Shown piece by piece: positions 31,661 through 42,284 of a stretch of 64,000 nucleotides of DNA. The translations under genes were made by a program, and so were the position numbers. The notes beneath the pieces are model-generated. The model saw only the letters and a list, made by a program, of their open reading frames with translations. It had not been told where the DNA came from and did no database searches. Origin of the DNA: Comamonadaceae bacterium (GTDB lineage: Bacteria > Pseudomonadota > Gammaproteobacteria > Burkholderiales > Burkholderiaceae_C); contig JAIXPL010000001.1 of the NCBI GenBank assembly GCA_027486255.1, positions 1 through 64,000 on the forward strand. Reading direction: 5' to 3'. Positions within the stretch are counted from its first letter, which is position 1. Each line of letters starts with the position of its first letter.

Positions 31661-31737
31661 CGGGGTGTAGCTTAGCCTGGTAGAGCGCTACGTTCGGGAC
31701 GTAGAGGCCGGAGGTTCGAATCCTCTCACCCCGACCA
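31661..31737 (+). tRNA. tRNA-Pro (anticodon CGG), integration target
   Basis: CGGGGTGTAGCTTAGCCTGGTAGAGCGCTACGTTCGGGACGTAGAGGCCGGAGGTTCGAATCCTCTCACCCCGACCA; loop TTCGGGA. Confidence 0.95.
31689..31737 (+). repeat. attL direct repeat (49 bp, 3' part of tRNA-Pro)
   Basis: Identical 49-mer TACGTTCGGGACGTAGAGGCCGGAGGTTCGAATCCTCTCACCCCGACCA also at 42236-42284. Confidence 0.95.
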
Positions 31738-31781
31738 AAATCATCAATTAAATCAATAACTTGGCAAATTGGTTGCTCAAA

Positions 31782-31811
31782 TTTGTAGTTTAGTTTAAGC
31801 TAAACTACAAA
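31782..31811. repeat. Perfect 12-bp inverted repeat (TTTGTAGTTTAG-TTTAAG-CTAAACTACAAA) inside the attL end
   Basis: Read directly; arms are exact reverse complements; core TAAACTACA recurs near attR. Confidence 0.9.
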
Positions 31812-31903
31812 TGCTTGATTCACCCAATTTCGATTCTTTGGTTTCGAAAAAACACGTTGTAGAGCGTATCTGCAGCGTGTTTTTTTCTTTTGGTGTTGCA
31901 TAG

Positions 31904-33331
31904 ATGGCACGTGCAGCAGCAAAGAAGGCCGTTCTCAGCGTCGTACAAATAGACGGTGCTGTGACGAAGCATCGCACTTCTGCCCTCAACCTCACGCACG
32001 TTTCCAACTATCCGAAGAAGCTCGTCATCTATCAGCTTGCAGCGTCGCCCTTTTGGTGGGTTCGCTACTACGCTGATGGAAAAATCCTTCGTCGCAGCAC
32101 AAGGGAGACCGACAAGCGGCGTGCCATTGAGTTCGCCAAAGACTTCTACGACGAAGTCAATTTCAAGCAGCGACAAGGGCTGGTACTGAACAGCCGTGCT
32201 GACTTTGAGATGTGCGCCCAAGCTCTACTTGAACAGCAAGACGCAAAGGTGCAGCGTGGCGAGATGTCGGCAATGATGCAGCAGAACGATAGGTATCGGC
32301 TGCACAAGGAAGTGCTGCCCTACTTCCGCAGCTACGACTTGAAGAGCATCGACTACTTCATCGTTGAGAAGTTCATCAACAAGCTCAGCGCCGACAAGCT
32401 CACAGCACCCACCATCAGCAACTATTTGGGGCTTGTCCGCAAGACGATGGGCTATGCACAGCGCAGGGGCTACATCGAAGTTGTGCCGCAGTTCCCAAAA
32501 GTCAAAAAGGTGGATGCGCCGCGCGGTTGGTTCAACACGAAGGAATACCGCAAGCTGTGGAATGCAGCACGCGAGCTCAGTGGCGAGACTTGGGAGATAC
32601 GCAAGTTCGTCGATGACAACGGCAAAGAAGAAGTCTTCACAGCCAAACGCCAGCCATCAACCTACAAACCGCGTGCAGCAGCACAGAAGGCTTTGCAGCA
32701 GAAGGTAGCTTCGAGTCAACTGCTGCGCCGTGTGGTGATGACAGAGGACTTGCGGAACCTCATTGTCTTTATGGCGAACAGCTTCATCCGTCCCACCGAC
32801 ATCAAGTGGATGCAGCACAAGCACATTGAGGTCATTGAGGGCGCTCACACCTATCTCCGTATGTCGCTGCCCACAAGCAAGAAGCACGACAAGCCCATTG
32901 TGTCGATGGCTGCTGCTGTGCATTACTACCGTCGGCAGAAGGCGCTGCATTGGAGCAACGACAAACGGAAGAACAAAGCAACAGCAGATGACTACGTGTT
33001 TCTGCCCTCGTATGGACGCACTTCTGCTGCGGACGCAAGGGAACAGATTGAAAAGCGCAGGGGTGCCGCACTGACACAGCTACAGCGTCAGTTCAGTGTC
33101 GTGTTGGCGCACTGTGGGTTGGCGCAGGGGGCACGTGGGGAGGAGCGCAGCCTTTACAGCCTAAGACACACTTGCATAATGTATCGTTTGCTTTATGGCG
33201 AGGGTTTGGACTTGCTCACGCTCGCGCGTAACGCACGTACATCGACTGAAATGATTGAGCGTTTCTATGCATCGCACTTAGAGGGTGAGATGAACATTGA
33301 GATGCTGCAGAGTCGAAGAGGAAAAAAATGA
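31904..33331 (+). CDS. Tyrosine recombinase / phage-type integrase (475 aa)
   Basis: Catalytic arm NSFIRPTDIKWM..., YSLRHTCIMYRLLYGEGLDLLTLARNARTSTEMIERFYASH (R-H-R-Y pattern); adjacent to att tRNA. Confidence 0.9.
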   Translation: MARAAAKKAVLSVVQIDGAVTKHRTSALNLTHVSNYPKKLVIYQLAASPFWWVRYYADGKILRRSTRETDKRRAIEFAKDFYDEVNFKQRQGLVLNSRADFEMCAQALLEQQDAKVQRGEMSAMMQQNDRYRLHKEVLPYFRSYDLKSIDYFIVEKFINKLSADKLTAPTISNYLGLVRKTMGYAQRRGYIEVVPQFPKVKKVDAPRGWFNTKEYRKLWNAARELSGETWEIRKFVDDNGKEEVFTAKRQPSTYKPRAAAQKALQQKVASSQLLRRVVMTEDLRNLIVFMANSFIRPTDIKWMQHKHIEVIEGAHTYLRMSLPTSKKHDKPIVSMAAAVHYYRRQKALHWSNDKRKNKATADDYVFLPSYGRTSAADAREQIEKRRGAALTQLQRQFSVVLAHCGLAQGARGEERSLYSLRHTCIMYRLLYGEGLDLLTLARNARTSTEMIERFYASHLEGEMNIEMLQSRRGKK

Positions 33332-33720
33332 ACAATCAATTTATGAACATAATCTATCCTCAAATTGAGGATGAAGCATCAGCAAAGCGTGTTGCGAAAT
33401 TTGGAGCATCTATTGCACTTGTAATTGCAGCGATTTCACTCGCTATGATTGGATTAAATATATTCGAAAAAGGCACAGACAATTCAATTGATATATTTTC
33501 CGCACTGATTGGCAACGTAGCGCCAATGCTAATAATCGCATTCTTTATAAACAAAATGTCGAGAGTGGCTGCAGTAATTGCGATTTTAATAACAGCTGCA
33601 GAGATGTATATAAAATTCACCGAGCAAGGAACCGTTGGATTAACGCCGTTTTTTATTCTTGCATTCTACAATTCAGCAAGAGCAACATTTAAGTACAAAA
33701 ATATAAAATCAAAAAATTAA
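33328..33720 (+). CDS. Small multi-TM membrane protein overlapping integrase stop (ATGA)
   Basis: Hydrophobic segments ASIALVIAAISLAMIGLNIF, IFSALIGNVAPMLIIAFFI, VAAVIAILITAAEMYI; 4-nt overlap. Confidence 0.65.
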   Translation: MNNQFMNIIYPQIEDEASAKRVAKFGASIALVIAAISLAMIGLNIFEKGTDNSIDIFSALIGNVAPMLIIAFFINKMSRVAAVIAILITAAEMYIKFTEQGTVGLTPFFILAFYNSARATFKYKNIKSKN

Positions 33721-33746
33721 AAGCCCACTATTAGTGAGCTTTTTTT
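33720..33746. terminator. Hairpin plus T tract between convergent genes
   Basis: AAAGCCCACTATTAGTGAGCTTTTTTT; imperfect stem with 7 T. Confidence 0.7.
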
Positions 33747-33767
33747 AGTGTCGATTAAATTGACGCT
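33747..33767 (+). repeat. 21-bp near-palindrome copy 1 (AGTGTCGATTAAATTGACGCT)
   Basis: Matches consensus AGYGTCGATTWWWNNGAYGCT; intergenic. Confidence 0.8.
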
Positions 33768-33772
33768 ACGAA

Positions 33773-34420
33773 CTACGCTTTACGCAGTATCTCATCCATA
33801 GTCTGGTAATAACTACGATTATCCGCCTTAGCATCATAGACAGCATCCAAAGCAGCCATTAGGGCATCGTCGTCTATGCTGTAGCCCTCAGCTTCAATGA
33901 TAGCTTTGGCTCGAGGGAAGAATACGTGTGGCTCACAAGGTGGCACGGGCAGCGTTTCACAGCGGCTACGAACGCCAATATCGATTTTCCCTATCTCATT
34001 TGTAGTCATAATCGTCATATCCACCCCTCTGTACTCATCGAGCACAACACGAAAAGCATCTCTTGCTTTGGCATCAAAATTTACCTCTTCAATTACGTTG
34101 TAGTTGTAGCGTTGGTCGTTAATAGTGAATAGCTTATCGAACTGCTTATTGCGAGTGAATTGGCTGTAGATTTCTTTACTACTATTCAAGTCACAGGAGC
34201 GTACACGATTGATGAGAGGCTCAAACCCCTCAATCTTTTTGGGTATCAGTTCAGATAAGAGACTTTTGCCAGTTCCATTTGTGCCACTCAAAATCAGCGG
34301 CCGAGTTATTTCACCCGTCCCATACGCTTTCGCCGTCTCTTCAACGTGTTTGTTGGGGAAAACGAACTCATCAAGTGAACGGGGACGATATTTTCTCTCA
34401 GTGTCAATTATCTTATGCAT
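33773..34420 (-). CDS. AAA+ ATPase resembling clamp-loader small subunits (RFC / T4 gp44-like), apparently lacking the collar domain
   Basis: Start MHKIIDTERKYRPRSLDEFVFPNK; Walker A LSGTNGTGKS; Walker B-like YNVIEEVN; sensor-1 MTTNE; SRC motif VRSRCETL. Confidence 0.72.
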   Translation of the reverse strand: MHKIIDTERKYRPRSLDEFVFPNKHVEETAKAYGTGEITRPLILSGTNGTGKSLLSELIPKKIEGFEPLINRVRSCDLNSSKEIYSQFTRNKQFDKLFTINDQRYNYNVIEEVNFDAKARDAFRVVLDEYRGVDMTIMTTNEIGKIDIGVRSRCETLPVPPCEPHVFFPRAKAIIEAEGYSIDDDALMAALDAVYDAKADNRSYYQTMDEILRKA

Positions 34421-34482
34421 AGTAATATCCTTTGAATAAATTTGATACAAGGTGGAGTGCAAGGCTGCACTCCACACATTTC

Positions 34483-35310
34483 TTAAGCTACTTCCAATTC
34501 CTTAAGTGTCATCTTTGCAGCAGACTTCGCGGAAATCGACTTAACTGCCTTCTCAGTCGTCACCTTCACTTTCTGTTCGTTTGCCTCAGATCGTGTTTTG
34601 GCCAATATTTCAATCCAGTCTTTTGCAAGCTCTTTGACAGCTGCAGTCTGCATTGCCTTTGTCGATTTCGGAACGGCACGCAGCAGCTCGAAACTACCAT
34701 TGCCTACGCTGCGTGCAACGATGAAGGCGAACTCCACACCGTCGCTCAACTCGACGCTTGCGTTTGGCAGAATGACGGTGGCTGCAGCAGGCAGTGACTT
34801 CAATAAACCCATCACATCGTTGCTCGCAGCAGCAACAGCTTCAACTCGCTGCTTTGTCTCATCCTTCATCTTGTACTTCTTTTTGCACTCCTCAACCCCA
34901 TTGCTTCCTTCGATAAATGCTGCAAGGTTTTCGGGTTTGATTTCTGCATCTACAGCCGCCATCAGCGTGCTAGCATAGTTGTAGGCACGCTTTCTGTCGC
35001 TGTTAAACACAAAGCGGACGAAACAAGTAAGGGCTGGCGTGTTGCTTTGCACCTTCACGCCTCGCGCCTTCAGCAACGAACGCATTTCTTTTGCTGTTTC
35101 CTTAATGCAGCCATCTTTGACAGCCTTATTGAAGAGTGCATATACCTTTGCAAGGATGGCATACAGTGCCTTATTGCTACGTGCAAGTTCTTCCTTTTCA
35201 AAAGTTTCACGCTGTACAGACAGCTTATTTGCCTCTTCAATTACCGATTTGACATTTGCAGAGATAGCGAGTGCTGTTACAACTGCTTGAGCTTTGGAAA
35301 ATTTAGCCAT
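34483..35310 (-). CDS. Lys/Ala-rich protein of unknown function, in operon with AAA+ gene
   Basis: ORF from MAKFSKAQAVVTALAISANVK; RBS CAAAGGA; same strand and spacing as neighbours. Confidence 0.7.
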   Translation of the reverse strand: MAKFSKAQAVVTALAISANVKSVIEEANKLSVQRETFEKEELARSNKALYAILAKVYALFNKAVKDGCIKETAKEMRSLLKARGVKVQSNTPALTCFVRFVFNSDRKRAYNYASTLMAAVDAEIKPENLAAFIEGSNGVEECKKKYKMKDETKQRVEAVAAASNDVMGLLKSLPAAATVILPNASVELSDGVEFAFIVARSVGNGSFELLRAVPKSTKAMQTAAVKELAKDWIEILAKTRSEANEQKVKVTTEKAVKSISAKSAAKMTLKELEVA

Positions 35311-35326
35311 TTTTATTTCCTTTGAA

Positions 35327-35620
35327 TTAAGAAGATTCGCCAATCAATTTACTCGAATAACCACATTTCTTTTCCCTGTCATACCAGGCAACGAGAATCC
35401 CATCTTCATTTCGGTAAACGATGTATCGTGCATCTCCACAGAAGCCTACATCCCAATGCAGCGCATTGTCGAAATCCAAATCGTATTGAAATTCGCTCAA
35501 ATCACAATTGAGGTTGGGCGAATTTACTCCAACAAAGAAATGCAATTGCCACTCGTATGTTTTAATCTCTCGTGCCTTTGCACATTTGGGACACTCGCAA
35601 ACACTTTTAATCTTAGTCAT
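35327..35620 (-). CDS. Small protein with N-terminal CxCxxC zinc-ribbon-like motif
   Basis: MTKIKSVCECPKCAKAREI...; RBS AAAGG; first gene of the minus-strand operon. Confidence 0.65.
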   Translation of the reverse strand: MTKIKSVCECPKCAKAREIKTYEWQLHFFVGVNSPNLNCDLSEFQYDLDFDNALHWDVGFCGDARYIVYRNEDGILVAWYDREKKCGYSSKLIGESS

Positions 35621-35760
35621 AAATTACCTTTAAGTTAGTTAATAAAACGTGCAGATTGACTTGTTTGGCTATGTCATTCAACACAGACGTATATTATCTC
35701 AATCTGAATAAAATTCATGCATCCGACTATTGGCAACGAATTGTCTGATAACATCTAACG
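35621..35760. promoter_or_regulatory. Divergent intergenic region, probable bidirectional promoter/control region
   Basis: 140-bp AT-rich gap between divergently oriented genes 35327-35620(-) and 35761-36507(+); inferred only. Confidence 0.4.
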
Positions 35761-36507
35761 ATGCGTAAAAAATTCCTTGCAATCCATCCGTTGATTGGGA
35801 CGAAGCTCAAACCGTCACCCATACATCTGCAGCAGCGCAGCCCATACTATTGGTGGTGGGCCTATCTGCGAAAGAACGCTGATTACCTCGCTTGCTGCGA
35901 GCGTGGGGGAGTGGGCGAGCTTGCTGCTTTGTATGCAGACTTCGGCGATGTGCGTTCTGACGACTTCCGCAGTTGGTGGGGGGCGCCAAATAACAAAGGC
36001 GACTACTTGTTCGCCGAAGAACCGTTGGAGCTAAGCATCCAAAAAATCGACGCTGCAGCTGAGATGAACAAGCGTTGGGGCTGTAACGTCCTGTTTGTCG
36101 CAGTCAATATGGATTTGGGGCGTCGGCATCTGCAGAAGAAGTTCGCCGACTTGCTGCTGACGGCACACAAGGGCAAACGTGGGCGAAAGTCGTTGCAGAC
36201 AGCCGTCAGCACGGCACGCTACCCACTGCACCGTAACTTCACACAGCACAACCTGAGGGTGATGCTCGATGTCTTCGAAGCCGTTGTGGCCAACGACGCC
36301 CTACCTAAAGAACAGCGCCAGCCGTTGTGGGCGATCGGCGAAAAGCTCAAACTTGTGCTGAGGGCTATGCCCGATAAGTGGGACAACCTCTATGAAACCC
36401 GTAGAAAACACGCCACAATGACAATGACGGTGAGCAGATACGTAAAGCAAGCCCGTGCCATCATTGCCAACACTGCCAATGGGCAGTTCCCCAACAGCGA
36501 CCTGTAA
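35761..36507 (+). CDS. Hypothetical protein with YYWWWAYLR N-terminal motif
   Basis: 248-aa ORF: SPYYWWWAYLRKNADYLACCERGGVGELAALYADFGDVRSDDFRSWWG, ordered-looking composition. Confidence 0.7.
   Translation: MRKKFLAIHPLIGTKLKPSPIHLQQRSPYYWWWAYLRKNADYLACCERGGVGELAALYADFGDVRSDDFRSWWGAPNNKGDYLFAEEPLELSIQKIDAAAEMNKRWGCNVLFVAVNMDLGRRHLQKKFADLLLTAHKGKRGRKSLQTAVSTARYPLHRNFTQHNLRVMLDVFEAVVANDALPKEQRQPLWAIGEKLKLVLRAMPDKWDNLYETRRKHATMTMTVSRYVKQARAIIANTANGQFPNSDL
36034..36054 (-). repeat. 21-bp near-palindrome copy 5 (intragenic, rc AGCGTCGATTTTTTGGATGCT)
   Basis: AGCATCCAAAAAATCGACGCT on + strand; lies inside a CDS so weaker support. Confidence 0.5.
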
Positions 36508-36527
36508 GCGTCGATTTTTAGGACGCT
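36507..36527 (+). repeat. 21-bp near-palindrome copy 2 (AGCGTCGATTTTTAGGACGCT)
   Basis: Perfect 6-bp arms AGCGTC/GACGCT; lies in the 36-bp gap between two genes. Confidence 0.85.
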
Positions 36528-36543
36528 GCAGTGAGGAGACACT

Positions 36544-36882
36544 ATGAGCTTCTACTTTTCTGCGAAGGTTTGGAACGAGCAGACCGATGCGCCCAACACA
36601 TCGAAGCGTGCAAAGCCCTCGTCTCAGTTATCTATTGAAAATGCACGCGTCATCGTTGTTAAAAATGCAAGGTACAGGAGTGCGACCATCAGCGGCACTT
36701 TTCTGCTCGGCGATAAAGTCGAATTACCGTTAGCCAGCGAGGGCTGGCACATCGTTGAGGTCTATTGCTGTTGGTTTGGGCTTAGGTTGAAAACACGTGG
36801 GCTGCATTTCAAAGTCAATATGTCTGACGCCGAAGTCATTGAAAACTACACCGGATCAATTGTCTCTAATATCAATGATTGA
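36544..36882 (+). CDS. Hypothetical protein
   Basis: 112-aa ORF downstream of GAGGAGA RBS. Confidence 0.6.
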   Translation: MSFYFSAKVWNEQTDAPNTSKRAKPSSQLSIENARVIVVKNARYRSATISGTFLLGDKVELPLASEGWHIVEVYCCWFGLRLKTRGLHFKVNMSDAEVIENYTGSIVSNIND

Positions 36883-36894
36883 TAAGGGGCTTGT

Positions 36895-37527
36895 ATGTCT
36901 TCATTTGAAAATTATGAGATAGATCTACTGAAAAAGAAAAACAAGTTTTTCTCAGATATATTTGGGGAATTCGATAAGTCGGAGCTCTCAAAATACAGGA
37001 GTGCCTATAATAAATTTTGGAGCAAGCTAAACAGGTTGGCTGATTTTCAAAAAGAGATTGATGAGCTTCGCGCGGAGGGTAATTTAACTCAGAAATTCAA
37101 TCGCAAGATGCGCCTATGGTTTTTCGCATCCATAATTGTAATTTCGGCATCAAATTATTTTTTTGATAGAAGTTCAATAGAGGGTGGCTTGTTTATTTTT
37201 TCATTAATGGCATTCTTTGGGTGGATATCCATAGTTTCACACATATCAGAAACGGCTCGCATGGCTGATATTTCAAATATCAATCGATTTGTCTTGCTAT
37301 TGAGGTCGGACTTGTTCGAGTACCAATTTGTCGATTTCTATGACGCTGAGCAATACCTAAAAATTATGCAAGGTAAGGGCTTCAGTTCTGCGACGCTTAC
37401 GGAGGCAGAGCAACATACCATTTCTAAGGTAAATATTGATTTGAATATTTCAATCGCCGATAGTATGGGTTATAACATACCAACATTTTTCGATTCGTTT
37501 GATTTGGAATCAAAAAAGTCTAGCTAA
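36895..37527 (+). CDS. Two-TM membrane protein with cytosolic flanks, unknown function
   Basis: TM segments LWFFASIIVISASNYFF and GGLFIFSLMAFFGWISIVSHI. Confidence 0.65.
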   Translation: MSSFENYEIDLLKKKNKFFSDIFGEFDKSELSKYRSAYNKFWSKLNRLADFQKEIDELRAEGNLTQKFNRKMRLWFFASIIVISASNYFFDRSSIEGGLFIFSLMAFFGWISIVSHISETARMADISNINRFVLLLRSDLFEYQFVDFYDAEQYLKIMQGKGFSSATLTEAEQHTISKVNIDLNISIADSMGYNIPTFFDSFDLESKKSS

Positions 37528-38108
37528 GCTAAATCAACTGCCTTTCGCAGCATATCGTCTGATGCATCAACGTAGCCGATAGTGGTGCTGATGTTGCGGT
37601 GCCCCATTGCACGCATCAGCACACGTATGCCAATGCCCTTCGAACTGAGCACGGTGGCAAAGCTGCGTCGTCCGCTGTGGCTGCTTGCTCCGTCGATGCC
37701 CACATTTCGGTAGAGATGCAGAAAGTATTGTGTGAGCGTGTTGGCTGTAAAGCCTCGTTTGGGGTTTTTCTGCGTGTAGAACAATGCGTTCTCACTGTCT
37801 TTCATCGGATGTGCAGCGATGTAGGCTGCAAGCTCTTTGCGTAGCTTTGTGCTGACGAACACCGTTCTGCTGTGTTTGCCCTTTGTCTGCTCTGCTGACA
37901 GCTGTATTTCGTCGCGCACGCTGCCATCGCTGTTGAGCACATCGCAGTAGCGTAGTGCTGCAACTTCCCCTACTCGCATCCCTGCCCAATGCGTGAGCAG
38001 CAGCAGCGCCCTATTGCGTGCTGCGTGTTTGCGGGTAGCTATGTAGTCGAGCACACGACGAAGTTCTGTGTTGCTGAGTGTTTTTGCTTTTCCCATCTGT
38101 CGCTCCAA
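37524..38108 (-). CDS. Short tyrosine recombinase (catalytic domain only, 194 aa)
   Basis: AGMRVGEVAALR..., QTKGKHSR..., SSHSGRRSFATVLSSKGIGIRVLMRAMGHRNISTTIGYVDAS. Confidence 0.9.
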   Translation of the reverse strand: MERQMGKAKTLSNTELRRVLDYIATRKHAARNRALLLLTHWAGMRVGEVAALRYCDVLNSDGSVRDEIQLSAEQTKGKHSRTVFVSTKLRKELAAYIAAHPMKDSENALFYTQKNPKRGFTANTLTQYFLHLYRNVGIDGASSHSGRRSFATVLSSKGIGIRVLMRAMGHRNISTTIGYVDASDDMLRKAVDLA

Positions 38109-38478
38109 ATCAAATAAATACAGAGCTGCAGTTTGTTTTCTTTGTTTTCAAAGAGCAACCGAAAAAGGCACGTACAAAAACCTCAATGATTTCAACGTGT
38201 TATGCAAGAACTACAGAAAATCCTACTTTTATGTAGTTTCGAGTGGCAGCAGCGCCACACAGCAAACAAGCCCTACAAGCTATTTAGCACCCCATTCGCT
38301 ACCCAACGCTGCAAACGCCCTTAAAAGCGTGCTGTAGCGTGTTTTGCTGCGTCAGTGTGTGCTGCGTGCTTGCTGCCCGAATTGGGTTTGCAGCCCTCAA
38401 ACTTCTGTGCTGCAGTTTTTTTAGGTAGAGGGTGTTTTTTCGTCTGAGTAGGGATTTTTGCCTACACAGCTGCTTTAG

Positions 38479-39105
38479 ATGTATAAAGTGACCAACCTCA
38501 CACACCCAACGCGACGGATGATTGAGCCAAGCTTCTTTCCCCAAACACTCATTGATTACGCCCAAATCGGTAGTGCTATCGGAACGTTGGGTGCAGTTGT
38601 GGTCAGTCTTTATCTTGCGAACAGACGTCCATCGCCTTTGCTGAGGATTTCGTGCTCTCGCAAAGTCATTGTCTGGCAGCAGCAGAAGGGCAACGCACCC
38701 GAATACCTAACTTTTAACGCTGTCAATGAAGGTGAAGCGCCAGCAACAATTGTGAATGTTGCTTGGCGATTGAGCTTTCCACTAAGAAAAAAGCGATGGG
38801 CTATACAAGATGTCACTTCGTCCGACTACATTGCACGGAATCCCCCACTCCCACACAAGTTGCAACACGGCGAATCAGCGACTTTCTTTATTGGATTGCA
38901 AGGGCAATATGACTGGACAAACAACATCAGAAAGTCTGGTTTTTTCAATGAAGGTATCCGAAGTAGGAAGGACTGTGAATATTTGCGTGCTGTTATATTT
39001 ACGTCTGTTGGCAAGCCGTCTTTTTGCAAGCCGGACAAAGAGGTGCTAGATTTAATATGGCAGCTTCAGTCTATGCATCTGTCCTCAACCACTCCGAATA
39101 GTTAG
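38479..39105 (+). CDS. Single-TM-anchored protein, unknown C-terminal domain
   Basis: TM IGSAIGTLGAVVVSLYLA after a short N-terminus; internal start MIEPSFFPQ at 38518 also possible. Confidence 0.6.
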   Translation: MYKVTNLTHPTRRMIEPSFFPQTLIDYAQIGSAIGTLGAVVVSLYLANRRPSPLLRISCSRKVIVWQQQKGNAPEYLTFNAVNEGEAPATIVNVAWRLSFPLRKKRWAIQDVTSSDYIARNPPLPHKLQHGESATFFIGLQGQYDWTNNIRKSGFFNEGIRSRKDCEYLRAVIFTSVGKPSFCKPDKEVLDLIWQLQSMHLSSTTPNS

Positions 39106-39166
39106 AAGTCAAAGCGGTAGCACTACCCATCATCTGCGTGGGCTTGTGGGAACTACACAGCTAACT

Positions 39167-39694
39167 TCAGTCTGCTGCGAGTGCGACGTGTGGGATTTGC
39201 GTGTTTTGGAAATCCCACGTGTCTATGTTGCCTATTTCTGCCTCTTTGGTGATGTAGTTGAGCCAATGCGTGTTGCGGCTGCAGTCTGCAGCTTGCAGCC
39301 ATAGACTCTTTCCGCTGAGCTTTGCCTTATCAACCCAACAATGCATGAAGACCTGACGTAGCTCGTCAGTGCTGATGCAGCGTGGGACGTTGCCTATTGC
39401 GAAATTGAAGTGGATTGTGTCTTGTGTGAATGGTGATGCCTTTGCGCCTTCGATGGTTGTGATTAGTAGTGGGCTGTAGATTTCGGGTTTGCGTAGTGCC
39501 TTTGCCTGGTAGAGGAATTGACTGAATGAGCGTCGAAAAAATCGACACTGATTCTGAGCCTCGTGCTTCATTCTTTCTAGCTGCGGCGGTGTTGCTCTGT
39601 AGGTGTGAAAAGGTGTGTGTGCTACAGCCCAATGCGTGATATGTTGGCTGTGCCCATTGAGGAAATTTCGAACGTGTTCTGCTGTTAGCTTCAT
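39167..39694 (-). CDS. Putative divergent HUH/Rep-like replication protein (tentative)
   Basis: TIHFNFAIGNVP (HxH-like), TDELRQVFMHCWVDKAKL, HWLNYITKEAE (Y-xx-K-like) in Rep order; start MKLTAEHVRNF. Confidence 0.4.
   Translation of the reverse strand: MKLTAEHVRNFLNGHSQHITHWAVAHTPFHTYRATPPQLERMKHEAQNQCRFFRRSFSQFLYQAKALRKPEIYSPLLITTIEGAKASPFTQDTIHFNFAIGNVPRCISTDELRQVFMHCWVDKAKLSGKSLWLQAADCSRNTHWLNYITKEAEIGNIDTWDFQNTQIPHVALAAD
39529..39549 (-). repeat. 21-bp near-palindrome copy 3 (rc AGTGTCGATTTTTTCGACGCT)
   Basis: AGCGTCGAAAAAATCGACACT on + strand; inside the putative Rep-like ORF. Confidence 0.75.
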
Positions 39695-39834
39695 ACAGCT
39701 ATTTAGCAAAACCAAATAAAAGGAGATGAATTTTCGGTGTGAGAAAAGAGCCACACGATGCAGCCTTTGCCGGTTGTCCATCACCACACTCTGAAACTAC
39801 ATTCAATGAACAACAACTTTTTTTGGAGCACTGA

Positions 39835-40275
39835 ATGACCGCACTTACCAATTTGAAATTCGTCGTAGCTAAGCGTGCTACAGCGCAAACGCCCACACAG
39901 CAGCGTCGAAACAAACTTAGTGCAAAGCTGTTCGAGCAAATGCAGTTGGCACGAGCACAAGCAGAAGGGCGTGTTTATTCGCCTACCAAATTCAAAACAG
40001 TAAAGGACGCTGAATCGGGCGAACGCCGCAGCATTGAAACAGCAAAAAGGATCAAACAGTGGTGGTGGGCAACTACAGATGGAAAGCTCAATCTGTCAAT
40101 CCGCTATGGCGCCAAAGTCATCGAAATCAGCAAAGGCAAAAATGCCATCGAGCTGTCTTCAGTCAATGAGCTGCTGCCCACGTTGGAAATCGTCAAGCAA
40201 GCAGTGGAAGAAGGCAGCTTGGATGCACAGATTGACGCTGTCAGCAACAAGCTGCGTAGTGGCTTTAAGAAATGA
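39835..40275 (+). CDS. DUF6641-like protein
   Basis: TNLKFVVAKRA...TQQRRNKLSAKLFEQMQLA...WWWATTDGKLNLSIRYGAKVIEISKGKNAIEL...GSLDAQID. Confidence 0.65.
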   Translation: MTALTNLKFVVAKRATAQTPTQQRRNKLSAKLFEQMQLARAQAEGRVYSPTKFKTVKDAESGERRSIETAKRIKQWWWATTDGKLNLSIRYGAKVIEISKGKNAIELSSVNELLPTLEIVKQAVEEGSLDAQIDAVSNKLRSGFKK

Positions 40276-40433
40276 AGTTACAGAGCTACGCTGCCACCGT
40301 TCGTGTTCGGATAAGTGGTGGCAGCACCATCCTCGTTCGGACACAAGTGCAAGCTGAGGACATCAACAGAGCCAAATGGCTGTTAGAAGCTCAGTACGGT
40401 GTCGGCAACGTTATCAACTTGTCGAAGATGTGA
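40272..40433 (+). CDS. 53-aa small protein, translationally coupled (ATGA) to the DUF6641-like gene; absent from ORF track
   Basis: MKLQSYAATVRVRISGGSTILVRTQVQAEDINRAKWLLEAQYGVGNVINLSKM, amphipathic and non-random; 4-nt overlap. Confidence 0.7.
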   Translation: MKLQSYAATVRVRISGGSTILVRTQVQAEDINRAKWLLEAQYGVGNVINLSKM

Positions 40434-40437
40434 AAAA

Positions 40438-40710
40438 TCAATCGTCATAGCCTAAGGCTTTTCGACGCTTTTTCTCATCGTCCAAATTGACATTATTTGA
40501 TTTTCTTACTAGGAGGGCTATGGCTATAAAGAGTACGAAGATGGCTACGATGTATTCAAAATATTCAAACATAAAATAAAGTGCCGCACCGGCAGCAGCC
40601 ACTCCTAAAGCGATAACGAGAAGCCATACACTTATCGAAAAGATCTGAGGGAGAAACGCAAGCAGAATCACTCCCAAAACGATTCCGAGCGCAATTTGAA
40701 CTATTAGCAT
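40438..40710 (-). CDS. Small membrane protein, paralog A of tandem duplication
   Basis: MLIVQIALGIVLGVILLAFLPQIFSISVW...; N-terminus parallels 40849-41286. Confidence 0.7.
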   Translation of the reverse strand: MLIVQIALGIVLGVILLAFLPQIFSISVWLLVIALGVAAAGAALYFMFEYFEYIVAIFVLFIAIALLVRKSNNVNLDDEKKRRKALGYDD

Positions 40711-40786
40711 ATACCTCGTTTATTAAAACTATACTCACTAAGGATGGCGGGGGTCTGTCGCATTCAATTAAATATGCCAAAACGAG

Positions 40787-40828
40787 ATGGTGTGGGGGCT
40801 ATTGAAATTTGCAAATGCTGAAGATTAG
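40787..40828 (+). pseudogene. Degenerate duplicate of the 5' end of the 41367 gene, stopped by CAG-to-TAG at codon 14
   Basis: MVWGLLKFANAED* aligned in register with MAVRLMEIASAEDQ; nucleotide similarity continues to about 40852 (GGGGCTCATCGA vs AAGCTCATCAATG). Confidence 0.75.
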
Positions 40829-40848
40829 ATGGCACTTTTTTGGGGGGC

Positions 40849-41286
40849 TCATCGACCGCTTACAGAAATCGCTGCATCATCAGCCACCAATTTTTCTCGC
40901 TGTGCTTGCATATCTTTAATTTTCTTCCTAATATTTTGCTTGGACACAAGGGATGCTTTAAGGTCTTTGGTACTGTGATCTGTGTGCTCAATGATTGATA
41001 GCATTTGTTGGAGATTACTCAATTCGATATTCAACTCTTCAATTTTTTTGCTTCTAAGGATTGACTTCCATTTTGTCGCTGAGTAAATTAGTGCTGCCAG
41101 GTAGGATAAAATTAGGACGCCCATTATGACGGACAAGAATTCGCTAATAAAGTGAGCTGCCAATACGACTATCGCGATGGCTACAGCAGCCATTCCAATC
41201 CATATTGTCATTGACAAAATTTGAGGAAGCAGTGCGATTAATATTGCTGCTAGGACAATTCCGAGCGCAATCTGAATTATTAACAT
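40849..41286 (-). CDS. Small membrane protein with C-terminal coiled coil, paralog B
   Basis: MLIIQIALGIVLAAILIALLPQILSMTIW... then charged coiled-coil region. Confidence 0.7.
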   Translation of the reverse strand: MLIIQIALGIVLAAILIALLPQILSMTIWIGMAAVAIAIVVLAAHFISEFLSVIMGVLILSYLAALIYSATKWKSILRSKKIEELNIELSNLQQMLSIIEHTDHSTKDLKASLVSKQNIRKKIKDMQAQREKLVADDAAISVSGR

Positions 41287-41366
41287 AGTAGGCTTTCGGT
41301 GGTGACGGTTCCATCGAACTTGTTTGATTGGCGCGTCATCTCAGTTGCTAAATATAACAAAAGGAG

Positions 41367-41837
41367 ATGGCGGTGAGGCTGATGGAAATCGCAAGTGCTG
41401 AAGATCAGATGGCACTATGGAAGCTCATCAATGACAACGTGTGGGCTGCTATCAATCAGCAAGCACGTGATGAGGCAGAGCGCAAAGCTGCAGCGCAGCG
41501 TGCTGCGAAGTTTAAGGGTGGCAAGCGAAAGTCGAAGGGTGCATCGCCATCTGTTCGCCTACCCCTACCACCCCCAACCAAAAAAGCGGCACCCCCACCA
41601 CCGCAGCAGCAGAAAACGGCTGTAGGTGCTCAGCAGCTGCCCACACGTGCAGCCAACCCCCAACAGCTTGCAGCAGAGCCCACCCAACCCATCGCAGCAC
41701 AGAAGCCAATTGCGCCAACCCAACCGACAGGACTTACAGCATCGGCACAGCCTCAACCTATGCCATCAAATCCGCTCAAACCACCCAAAAAAAGTAGGTT
41801 TTCGGCGAGAGACATAGCTGCTGCAAAAAAGTGGTGA
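41367..41837 (+). CDS. Low-complexity Pro/Ala/Gln-rich protein with charged N-terminal helix
   Basis: AAGGAG RBS; EDQMALWKLINDNVWAAINQQARDEAERKAAAQRAAKFKGGKRKSKGA then PPP/QQ repeats. Confidence 0.6.
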   Translation: MAVRLMEIASAEDQMALWKLINDNVWAAINQQARDEAERKAAAQRAAKFKGGKRKSKGASPSVRLPLPPPTKKAAPPPPQQQKTAVGAQQLPTRAANPQQLAAEPTQPIAAQKPIAPTQPTGLTASAQPQPMPSNPLKPPKKSRFSARDIAAAKKW

Positions 41838-41931
41838 GTGGGGATGAGAGGCATAGTGAAAATGGTTGCAGCACCCAAAAAATTTCTGCTGCAGTTTTCG
41901 AAGGGGGTGCAGAACCTAACCCCCACCACTT

Positions 41932-42168
41932 TTAATCTAACCACCCTACAAGCTGTCGATGGCAGAGCCCTTTAACGAGGCGAGCACAGCTGTGGCAATC
42001 GACGTGCTGTAGGGCTGCTGTATGGTCGATAGAGCCCATCTGCTGTACTTCAATGACGTAGCAGCGTCCTAAAAATCGACACTGAACGTAGAGGCTTTGG
42101 TGGCACGCCGACAGACTCTTTTTCACAGGGTGAGAAGCGTCTTTTCTTTGGTTTTTAGTCAGTCCCAA
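41932..42168 (-). CDS. Possible Cys/His-rich small protein abutting the attR arm region
   Basis: 78-aa ORF: SACHQSLYVQCRFLGRCYVIEVQQMGSIDHTAALQHVDCHSCARLVKGLCHRQL; no other support. Confidence 0.35.
   Translation of the reverse strand: MGLTKNQRKDASHPVKKSLSACHQSLYVQCRFLGRCYVIEVQQMGSIDHTAALQHVDCHSCARLVKGLCHRQLVGWLD
42064..42084 (-). repeat. 21-bp near-palindrome copy 4 (rc AGTGTCGATTTTTAGGACGCT)
   Basis: AGCGTCCTAAAAATCGACACT on + strand; one base from copy 2, flanking GC also shared. Confidence 0.85.
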
Positions 42169-42169
42169 A

Positions 42170-42191
42170 TAAACTACAGACTAAACTACAA
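42170..42191. promoter_or_regulatory. Two direct TAAACTACA motifs near attR (possible integrase arm-type or Xis sites)
   Basis: TAAACTACAGACTAAACTACAA; same motif forms the attL inverted repeat. Confidence 0.5.
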
Positions 42192-42235
42192 TAGAGAAAT
42201 TACCAATAAAATCAACAGCTTGCATTATGTTTAGG

Positions 42236-42284
42236 TACGTTCGGGACGTAGAGGCCGGAGGTTCGAATCCTCTCACCCCGACCA
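42236..42284 (+). repeat. attR direct repeat (49 bp)
   Basis: Identical to 31689-31737. Confidence 0.95.

Follow-up and report, generated by a model that had tools for sequence, protein, structure and literature searches.

A collarless relative of clamp-loader ATPases and its obligate partner in tRNA-targeting islands of freshwater Burkholderiales

The window analyzed here, a 64,000-nucleotide stretch of Comamonadaceae DNA (contig JAIXPL010000001.1, positions 1 to 64,000), contains a small integrative island that encodes a member of the clamp-loader clade of AAA+ ATPases, yet one that fails three features of a functional clamp-loader subunit: the C-terminal collar, the canonical DExD box and a sliding clamp encoded nearby. 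Its gene is coupled to that of a partner protein throughout a family of related islands. The reading that we favor, tentatively and somewhat short of calling it probable, is that of a clamp-loader motor that does without a collar, would be built up on its partner and directed by it, and would serve the maintenance of the island DNA. The original prediction of a repurposed loader, made from the letters of the window, stands in this form.

The reading frame of the AAA+ protein starts with an ATG at position 34420, behind a good leader (TTCAAAGGATATTACT), and all of the motifs quoted in the original prediction are present in its product. The protein has the Walker A sequence GTNGTGKS, an altered DExD box (EEVN), sensor-1 TTN and the arginine finger SRC; the sensor-2 arginine is R202. 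The assignment to the clamp loaders, likewise predicted, holds at the level of sequence, profile and predicted fold, which all point to RFC and gp44. PHROG 168 ("clamp loader of DNA polymerase") matched almost the full length of the protein (E 1.1e-17), the single sequence matched an archaeal RFC small subunit in the PDB (E 2.7e-9), and the NCBIfam model of the RFC small subunit gave 3.5e-13, well under that model's cut-off. A profile built from 33 AAA+ members of the island family matched RFC subunit 5 at E 5.6e-25 and ranked the known families in the order RFC, T4 gp44, DnaX, then RarA and others. The similarity extends over both the AAA+ and lid domains. The AlphaFold2 model (pLDDT 89) retrieved domains 1 and 2 of RFC as its top Foldseek match (E 5.9e-13), and the matches listed were all RFC, gamma/tau or T4 loader chains. 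The resemblance is far above chance, and the structure search places the protein in the RFC/gp44 clade rather than in the IstB/DnaC or MoxR clades, which the original prediction had named as contrary outcomes. Identity with an IstB/DnaC helicase loader was ruled out, the DnaC-like PHROG 3277 reaching only E 0.025.

The window frame stops after the lid domain. The missing collar, first noted for this one protein, proved to be a property of the whole family: the 39 intact ORFs measure 219-270 aa, although these lengths were taken from the first possible start, versus 303-344 aa for 77 intact viral clamp-loader ORFs obtained from IMG/VR with the same profile. One additional family ORF, of 172 aa, is truncated. 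The collar of clamp loaders is responsible for their oligomerization (PMC8121543). Residues of the ATP site and those acting in trans are nevertheless conserved across the family, the Walker A lysine, Walker B glutamate, sensor-1 asparagine and arginine finger being invariant in all 40 AAA+ proteins and the sensor-2 arginine in all 39 that have the region. Oligomers are still expected despite the loss of the collar, given the invariant arginine finger (S/D/N-R-C/S across the family) and the presence of K or R at the position of T4 Arg122 in 39 of the 40 proteins.

In most members the DExD box is canonical (DEVD) and the residue corresponding to T4 Gln118 is Q, M or H. A non-canonical set of 11 of the 40, which includes the window protein, has EEVN, NEIN or NEVD instead, with R, A or S at the Gln118 position, and forms a single branch (UFboot 89). 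In the T4 clamp loader, the change of Asp107 to Glu lowers phage output at least 200-fold, position 110 accepts only Asp or Glu, and Gln118 can be replaced only by His (PMC8121543). The EEVN box and the lack of a Gln118 equivalent thus make an ordinary DNA-triggered clamp-loading ATPase unlikely for the window copy, which, by the T4 mutational yardstick, would be a poor conventional loader. The loaders of phages, archaea and eukaryotes share Gln118, and those of bacteria lack it (PMC8121543); the equivalent residue is Gln in 19 of the 40 island proteins, which points to an origin of the gp44/RFC type rather than the DnaX type. In a tree without a resolved root, confined to the island AAA+ proteins and sampled viral gp44 and bacterial DnaX sequences, the island proteins were monophyletic (UFboot 100).

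The partner protein had no match in Pfam, among PDB sequences or folds, or among the viral folds of BFVD. AlphaFold2 (pLDDT 77) predicts a long helix (coiled coil) at the N terminus, a core of helices spanning residues 69-172, a minor beta portion and a helix at the C terminus, the placement of these domains being uncertain at a pTM of 0.47. The core is basic, with a mean net charge of +6. The partner ORF precedes the AAA+ ORF on the same strand in 40 of 40 cases, with a gap of -4 to 83 nt in all but one, where it is 243 nt. The two proteins have also diversified together: their mirror-tree correlation (rho 0.73) was reached in none of 500 permutations, as compared with values for the AAA+ protein of 0.10 with the small recombinase, 0.15 with the DUF6641 protein, 0.23 with the integrase and 0.29 with F6, and the non-partner values among divergent pairs were 0.06-0.14 or below. 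The divergence of the AAA+ protein tracks the partner and none of these other island proteins, so that the two form a module passed between islands as a unit. Such co-diversification shows a functional pair, and not what the job of the pair might be. Purifying selection on the AAA+ gene is strong (dN/dS 0.038 between the window and its sister island), and the dN/dS values supporting the pair are 0.038 and 0.083.

The original prediction had described a three-gene operon that included a CxCxxC mini-protein. The co-occurrence check proposed with it revealed a strongly conserved neighborhood for the partner and AAA+ genes, whereas the CxCxxC gene is not part of the unit: it is absent from the corresponding place in the sister island, and none of the ORFs in the 86 loci is homologous to it. 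The matched leaders that had been described are indeed present, with TTCAAAGGA before both the AAA+ and partner genes and CTTAAAGGT before that of the mini-protein.

The island itself (positions 31689-42284, 10.5 kb) is a tyrosine-recombinase element inside a tRNA-Pro(CGG) gene. Its integrase lies by the tRNA gene, its perfect att repeats are 10,547 bp apart from start to start, and the GC content falls from about 65% outside to 45-47% inside, all of which shows that the predicted island is real and of the integrative kind. The features are listed in Table 1. The small recombinase comprises the catalytic domain only and is highly conserved beside the separate large integrase, which is 93% identical to its counterpart in the sister island. 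F6 belongs to no family of known function in Pfam or PHROG. The F8 protein, also without a match in these two collections, carries the family motifs H[FYL][HN] (HFN in the window) and YITK, and is possibly a Rep or relaxase-type nuclease. Two membrane-type genes at 40438-40710 and 40849-41286 (reverse strand) share nearly identical first 25 residues (MLI[VI]QIALGIVL...), the mark of a recent duplication; a relative occurs in locus L134 (7738-8223). A search for an iteron-like origin between F6 and the partner gene yielded nothing convincing.

Table 1. Features of the island in the window (positions refer to the 64,000-nucleotide stretch).
Feature	Position	Strand	Evidence and occurrence
tRNA-Pro(CGG), integration target	31661..31737	+	ARAGORN
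att repeat, tRNA side, 49 bp	31689..31737		perfect direct repeat, tRNA-Pro 3' end
Large tyrosine recombinase/integrase, 475 aa	31904..33331	+	Pfam Phage_int_SAM_5 9e-5; PHROG 1 3e-16
Membrane-type protein, 130 aa, variable cargo	33328..33720	+	without match in sister island
Collarless clamp-loader-like AAA+ ATPase, 215 aa	33773..34420	-	profile, fold and motif evidence
Obligate partner, 275 aa, no known family	34483..35310	-	adjacent in 40/40 loci; AlphaFold2
CxCxxC mini-protein, 97 aa, outside conserved module	35327..35620	-	unique to window among 86 loci
F6 family protein, 248 aa	35761..36507	+	38 loci; head-to-head with partner/AAA+ pair
F9 family protein, 112 aa	36544..36882	+	13 loci
Small tyrosine recombinase, about 190 aa, island hallmark	37524..38093	-	Pfam Phage_integrase 3.7e-27; 85 loci
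208-aa protein	38479..39105	+	also in sister island, 81% identity
F8 family protein, 206 aa, HUH-endonuclease-like motifs	39167..39787	-	motif scan; 16 loci
DUF6641 protein, island hallmark	39835..40275	+	Pfam DUF6641 2.8e-16; 62 loci
att repeat, distal side, 49 bp	42236..42284		perfect direct repeat

The non-viral nature of the island, as originally claimed, is supported by IMG/VR, in which no relatives of the partner, the small recombinase or the DUF6641 protein were found. A scan of the same database with the single AAA+ sequence gave nothing, and the profile scan gave full-length viral clamp loaders only. Neither the AAA+ protein nor the partner was found in PLSDB; INPHARED yielded distant clamp loaders only (22-28% identity) and no partner. 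A prophage or phage satellite was ruled out, no structural or packaging family being detected among the window island proteins tested, while 69 non-core proteins of related islands gave one weak match to a terminase small subunit and one to a tail lysin. The lack of a sliding clamp and polymerase remarked on for the island was confirmed and extends to the related AAA+-bearing islands; no sliding clamp occurs in the window island or among the 69 non-core proteins.

Related islands were collected with the small recombinase as bait, so that the census covers islands that carry this gene: 80 loci came from GTDB genomes and four more from whole-genome searches, and the search for homologues of the mini-protein ran over 86 related loci. 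These islands encode the AAA+ protein in 40 ORFs (34 of them distinct among named genomes, with the window in addition) and the partner in 43. Most hosts belong to Polynucleobacter, Limnohabitans or further freshwater lineages of the Burkholderiales; one locus (L126) comes from a MAG labeled Legionellaceae. When 399 proteobacterial genomes were searched independently with a profile, the short family (E < 1e-57, open frames of 222-250 aa) stood apart from frames resembling DnaX (E of 7.6e-25 or weaker, mostly 500-800 aa), and one genome outside the window's class, G1116, was added with the same architecture. In the same kind of island in a proteobacterium outside that class (L227:9349-14298), the integrase and the partner are each split into two ORFs, but the AAA+ ORF is intact. 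A large protein of 393-590 aa, with frames of 894 aa elsewhere, occurs in L129 (3223-4782) and four other loci and weakly resembles Druantia DruA (E 0.006).

Among 51 islands that possess the integrase, the small recombinase and the DUF6641 protein, the AAA+ gene is present in 30 and the partner in 34. The AAA+ gene is missing from the other 21, 13 of which have no recognized alternative; it is therefore not required for the existence of an island and could be cargo. The sister island (L031, the same locus as L125) comes from Limnohabitans radicicola JUR4 and is lodged in the equivalent tRNA gene there; the 49-bp att sequence recurs identically in its tRNA-Pro. Island segments of the two are 82-91% identical, as compared with 66-82% for the flanking matches, which suggests exchange after the divergence of the hosts, and the uneven dS between genes (0.27 to 1.34) is a sign of mosaic islands. 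In the literature found, drawn mostly from outside subscription journals such that absence is not proof, no paper describes the partner/AAA+ pair, DUF6641 or the island family, and none combines a clamp loader with a genomic island. This suggests that the family was previously undescribed.

The pair stands head-to-head with the conserved F6 gene in about 30 loci, and the slot opposite F6 can be occupied by other genes. In L134 and L140 it is held by a different AAA+ protein (phrog_1250) followed by an HTH-type protein; the same combination occurs opposite F6 in L145, whose copy matched phrog_1250 at E 1.8e-52. That an unrelated ATPase and DNA-binding protein can take over this slot supports, circumstantially, an ATPase-plus-adaptor job on DNA. 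In L135 the slot is filled by F47, which is found between the recombinase and the integrase in L169 and L172, both of which lack the pair. F47 is not recognizable as a homologue of the partner (hhalign probability 0.5%).

One of the closest known systems is the clamp loader of T4-type phages. The island AAA+ proteins share with gp44 (PHROG 168) the AAA+ and lid fold, an N-terminal KYRP..LDE motif, the SRC arginine finger, the sensor residues and, in about half of the family, the Gln118 equivalent; moreover, the gp44-gp62 gene neighborhood is analogous to the island pair. In contrast, the island proteins lack the collar, are not encoded close to a gp45 clamp, a polymerase or gp62, reside on an island rather than a phage, and are accompanied by a partner that is unrelated in sequence or fold; the window copy has EEVN where gp44 has DEFD. 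The small subunit of archaeal and eukaryotic RFC (2chg, 2chq, 9uiq, 6vvo) gives the strongest matches by profile and by structure, covering domains 1 and 2, but RFC subunits possess a collar and serve to load PCNA, and PCNA is absent from the island. Bacterial DnaX (tau/gamma) is of the same AAA+ clade but has a long C-terminal part and a zinc module, and forms a separate clade in the tree (UFboot 100). As to the element, tycheposons and other tRNA-targeting islands, compared by description, resemble it in tRNA integration, tyrosine recombinase, variable cargo and aquatic hosts and differ in that the present family has two tyrosine recombinases and DUF6641; clamp-loader genes are unmentioned in the literature found on such islands.

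Several other roles for the pair were weighed. Defense against phages or other elements, in which the pair, as island cargo, would sense or poison phage replication, for instance by mixing with a T4-type loader, would suit a gp44-like origin, an accessory gene pair (30 of 51 islands) exchanged between islands, and the other cargo of the family, which includes toxin-antitoxin genes, type I restriction-like genes and O-antigen acyltransferases. We consider it unlikely, however: PADLOC gave no match for ten island proteins, no effector domain is recognizable, and the place of the pair beside F6 is steadier than that of cargo would be. It is rather unlikely that, along the lines of the original prediction, the AAA+ protein, with its partner, joins host clamp-loader subunits or opens host DnaN and so draws the host polymerase to the excised island. 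The intact Walker A, sensors and arginine finger of a clamp-loader-clade protein would allow this, and any loader activity would have to use the host's clamp and polymerase since the island has none of its own; but there is no collar with which to join DnaX-type pentamers, and weak evidence speaks against the use of DnaN: a bacterial clamp-binding motif is found in none of the 40 AAA+ proteins and, as a single weak match, among 36 partners, and the window branch lacks the equivalents of Asp107/Asp110 and Gln118, where substitutions are severe in T4 (PMC8121543).

The repeated company of two tyrosine recombinases, and the replacement of the pair by another AAA+ and a DNA-binding protein, could also indicate an ATP-dependent target or assembly factor that regulates integration or excision in the manner of MuB or TnsC. 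This seems improbable, as the AAA+ protein has diversified independently of both recombinases (rho 0.10 and 0.23) and many islands have both recombinases without the pair; nor is such a factor known to be required by tyrosine recombinases. Retention by chance of an inactive phage clamp-loader remnant, to which the altered DExD box and missing collar of the window copy might be ascribed, was rejected as extremely improbable: it is largely refuted by the dN/dS of 0.038, and the ATP-site residues are invariant and the 40 copies always paired.

According to the favored reading of a collar-free motor on its partner, a clamp-loader subunit of the gp44 or archaeal RFC type would have lost its collar and been repurposed by the island family. 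The AAA+ protein would then act not as a conventional loader working alone, but as an ATP-driven ring or spiral in a physical complex with its own partner, whose coiled coil and basic helical core would substitute for the collar as an assembly platform and, as a DNA adaptor, bring the ATPase to DNA. The DNA on which the complex acts would be that of the island itself, and its likeliest task would be to replicate or maintain the circle after excision. ATP is probably hydrolyzed slowly, or in response to a different trigger, in the window branch, so that ATP binding may be the switch there.

Clamp loaders are regarded as pentamers that are held together by their collars. The movement of the pair as a unit through islands suggests a replication motor put to new use. 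That this two-gene DNA machine, a collarless motor on a coiled-coil partner, is the replication or partition motor of an exchangeable island family is possible, and is proposed with more reserve. The pair is short and exchangeable between islands and thus directly testable. If true, a widespread and strongly selected collar-free relative with a partner would mean that rewiring can fit the clamp-loader motor to a different task, and it would offer an entry into the self-maintenance of small non-viral islands in abundant freshwater bacteria.
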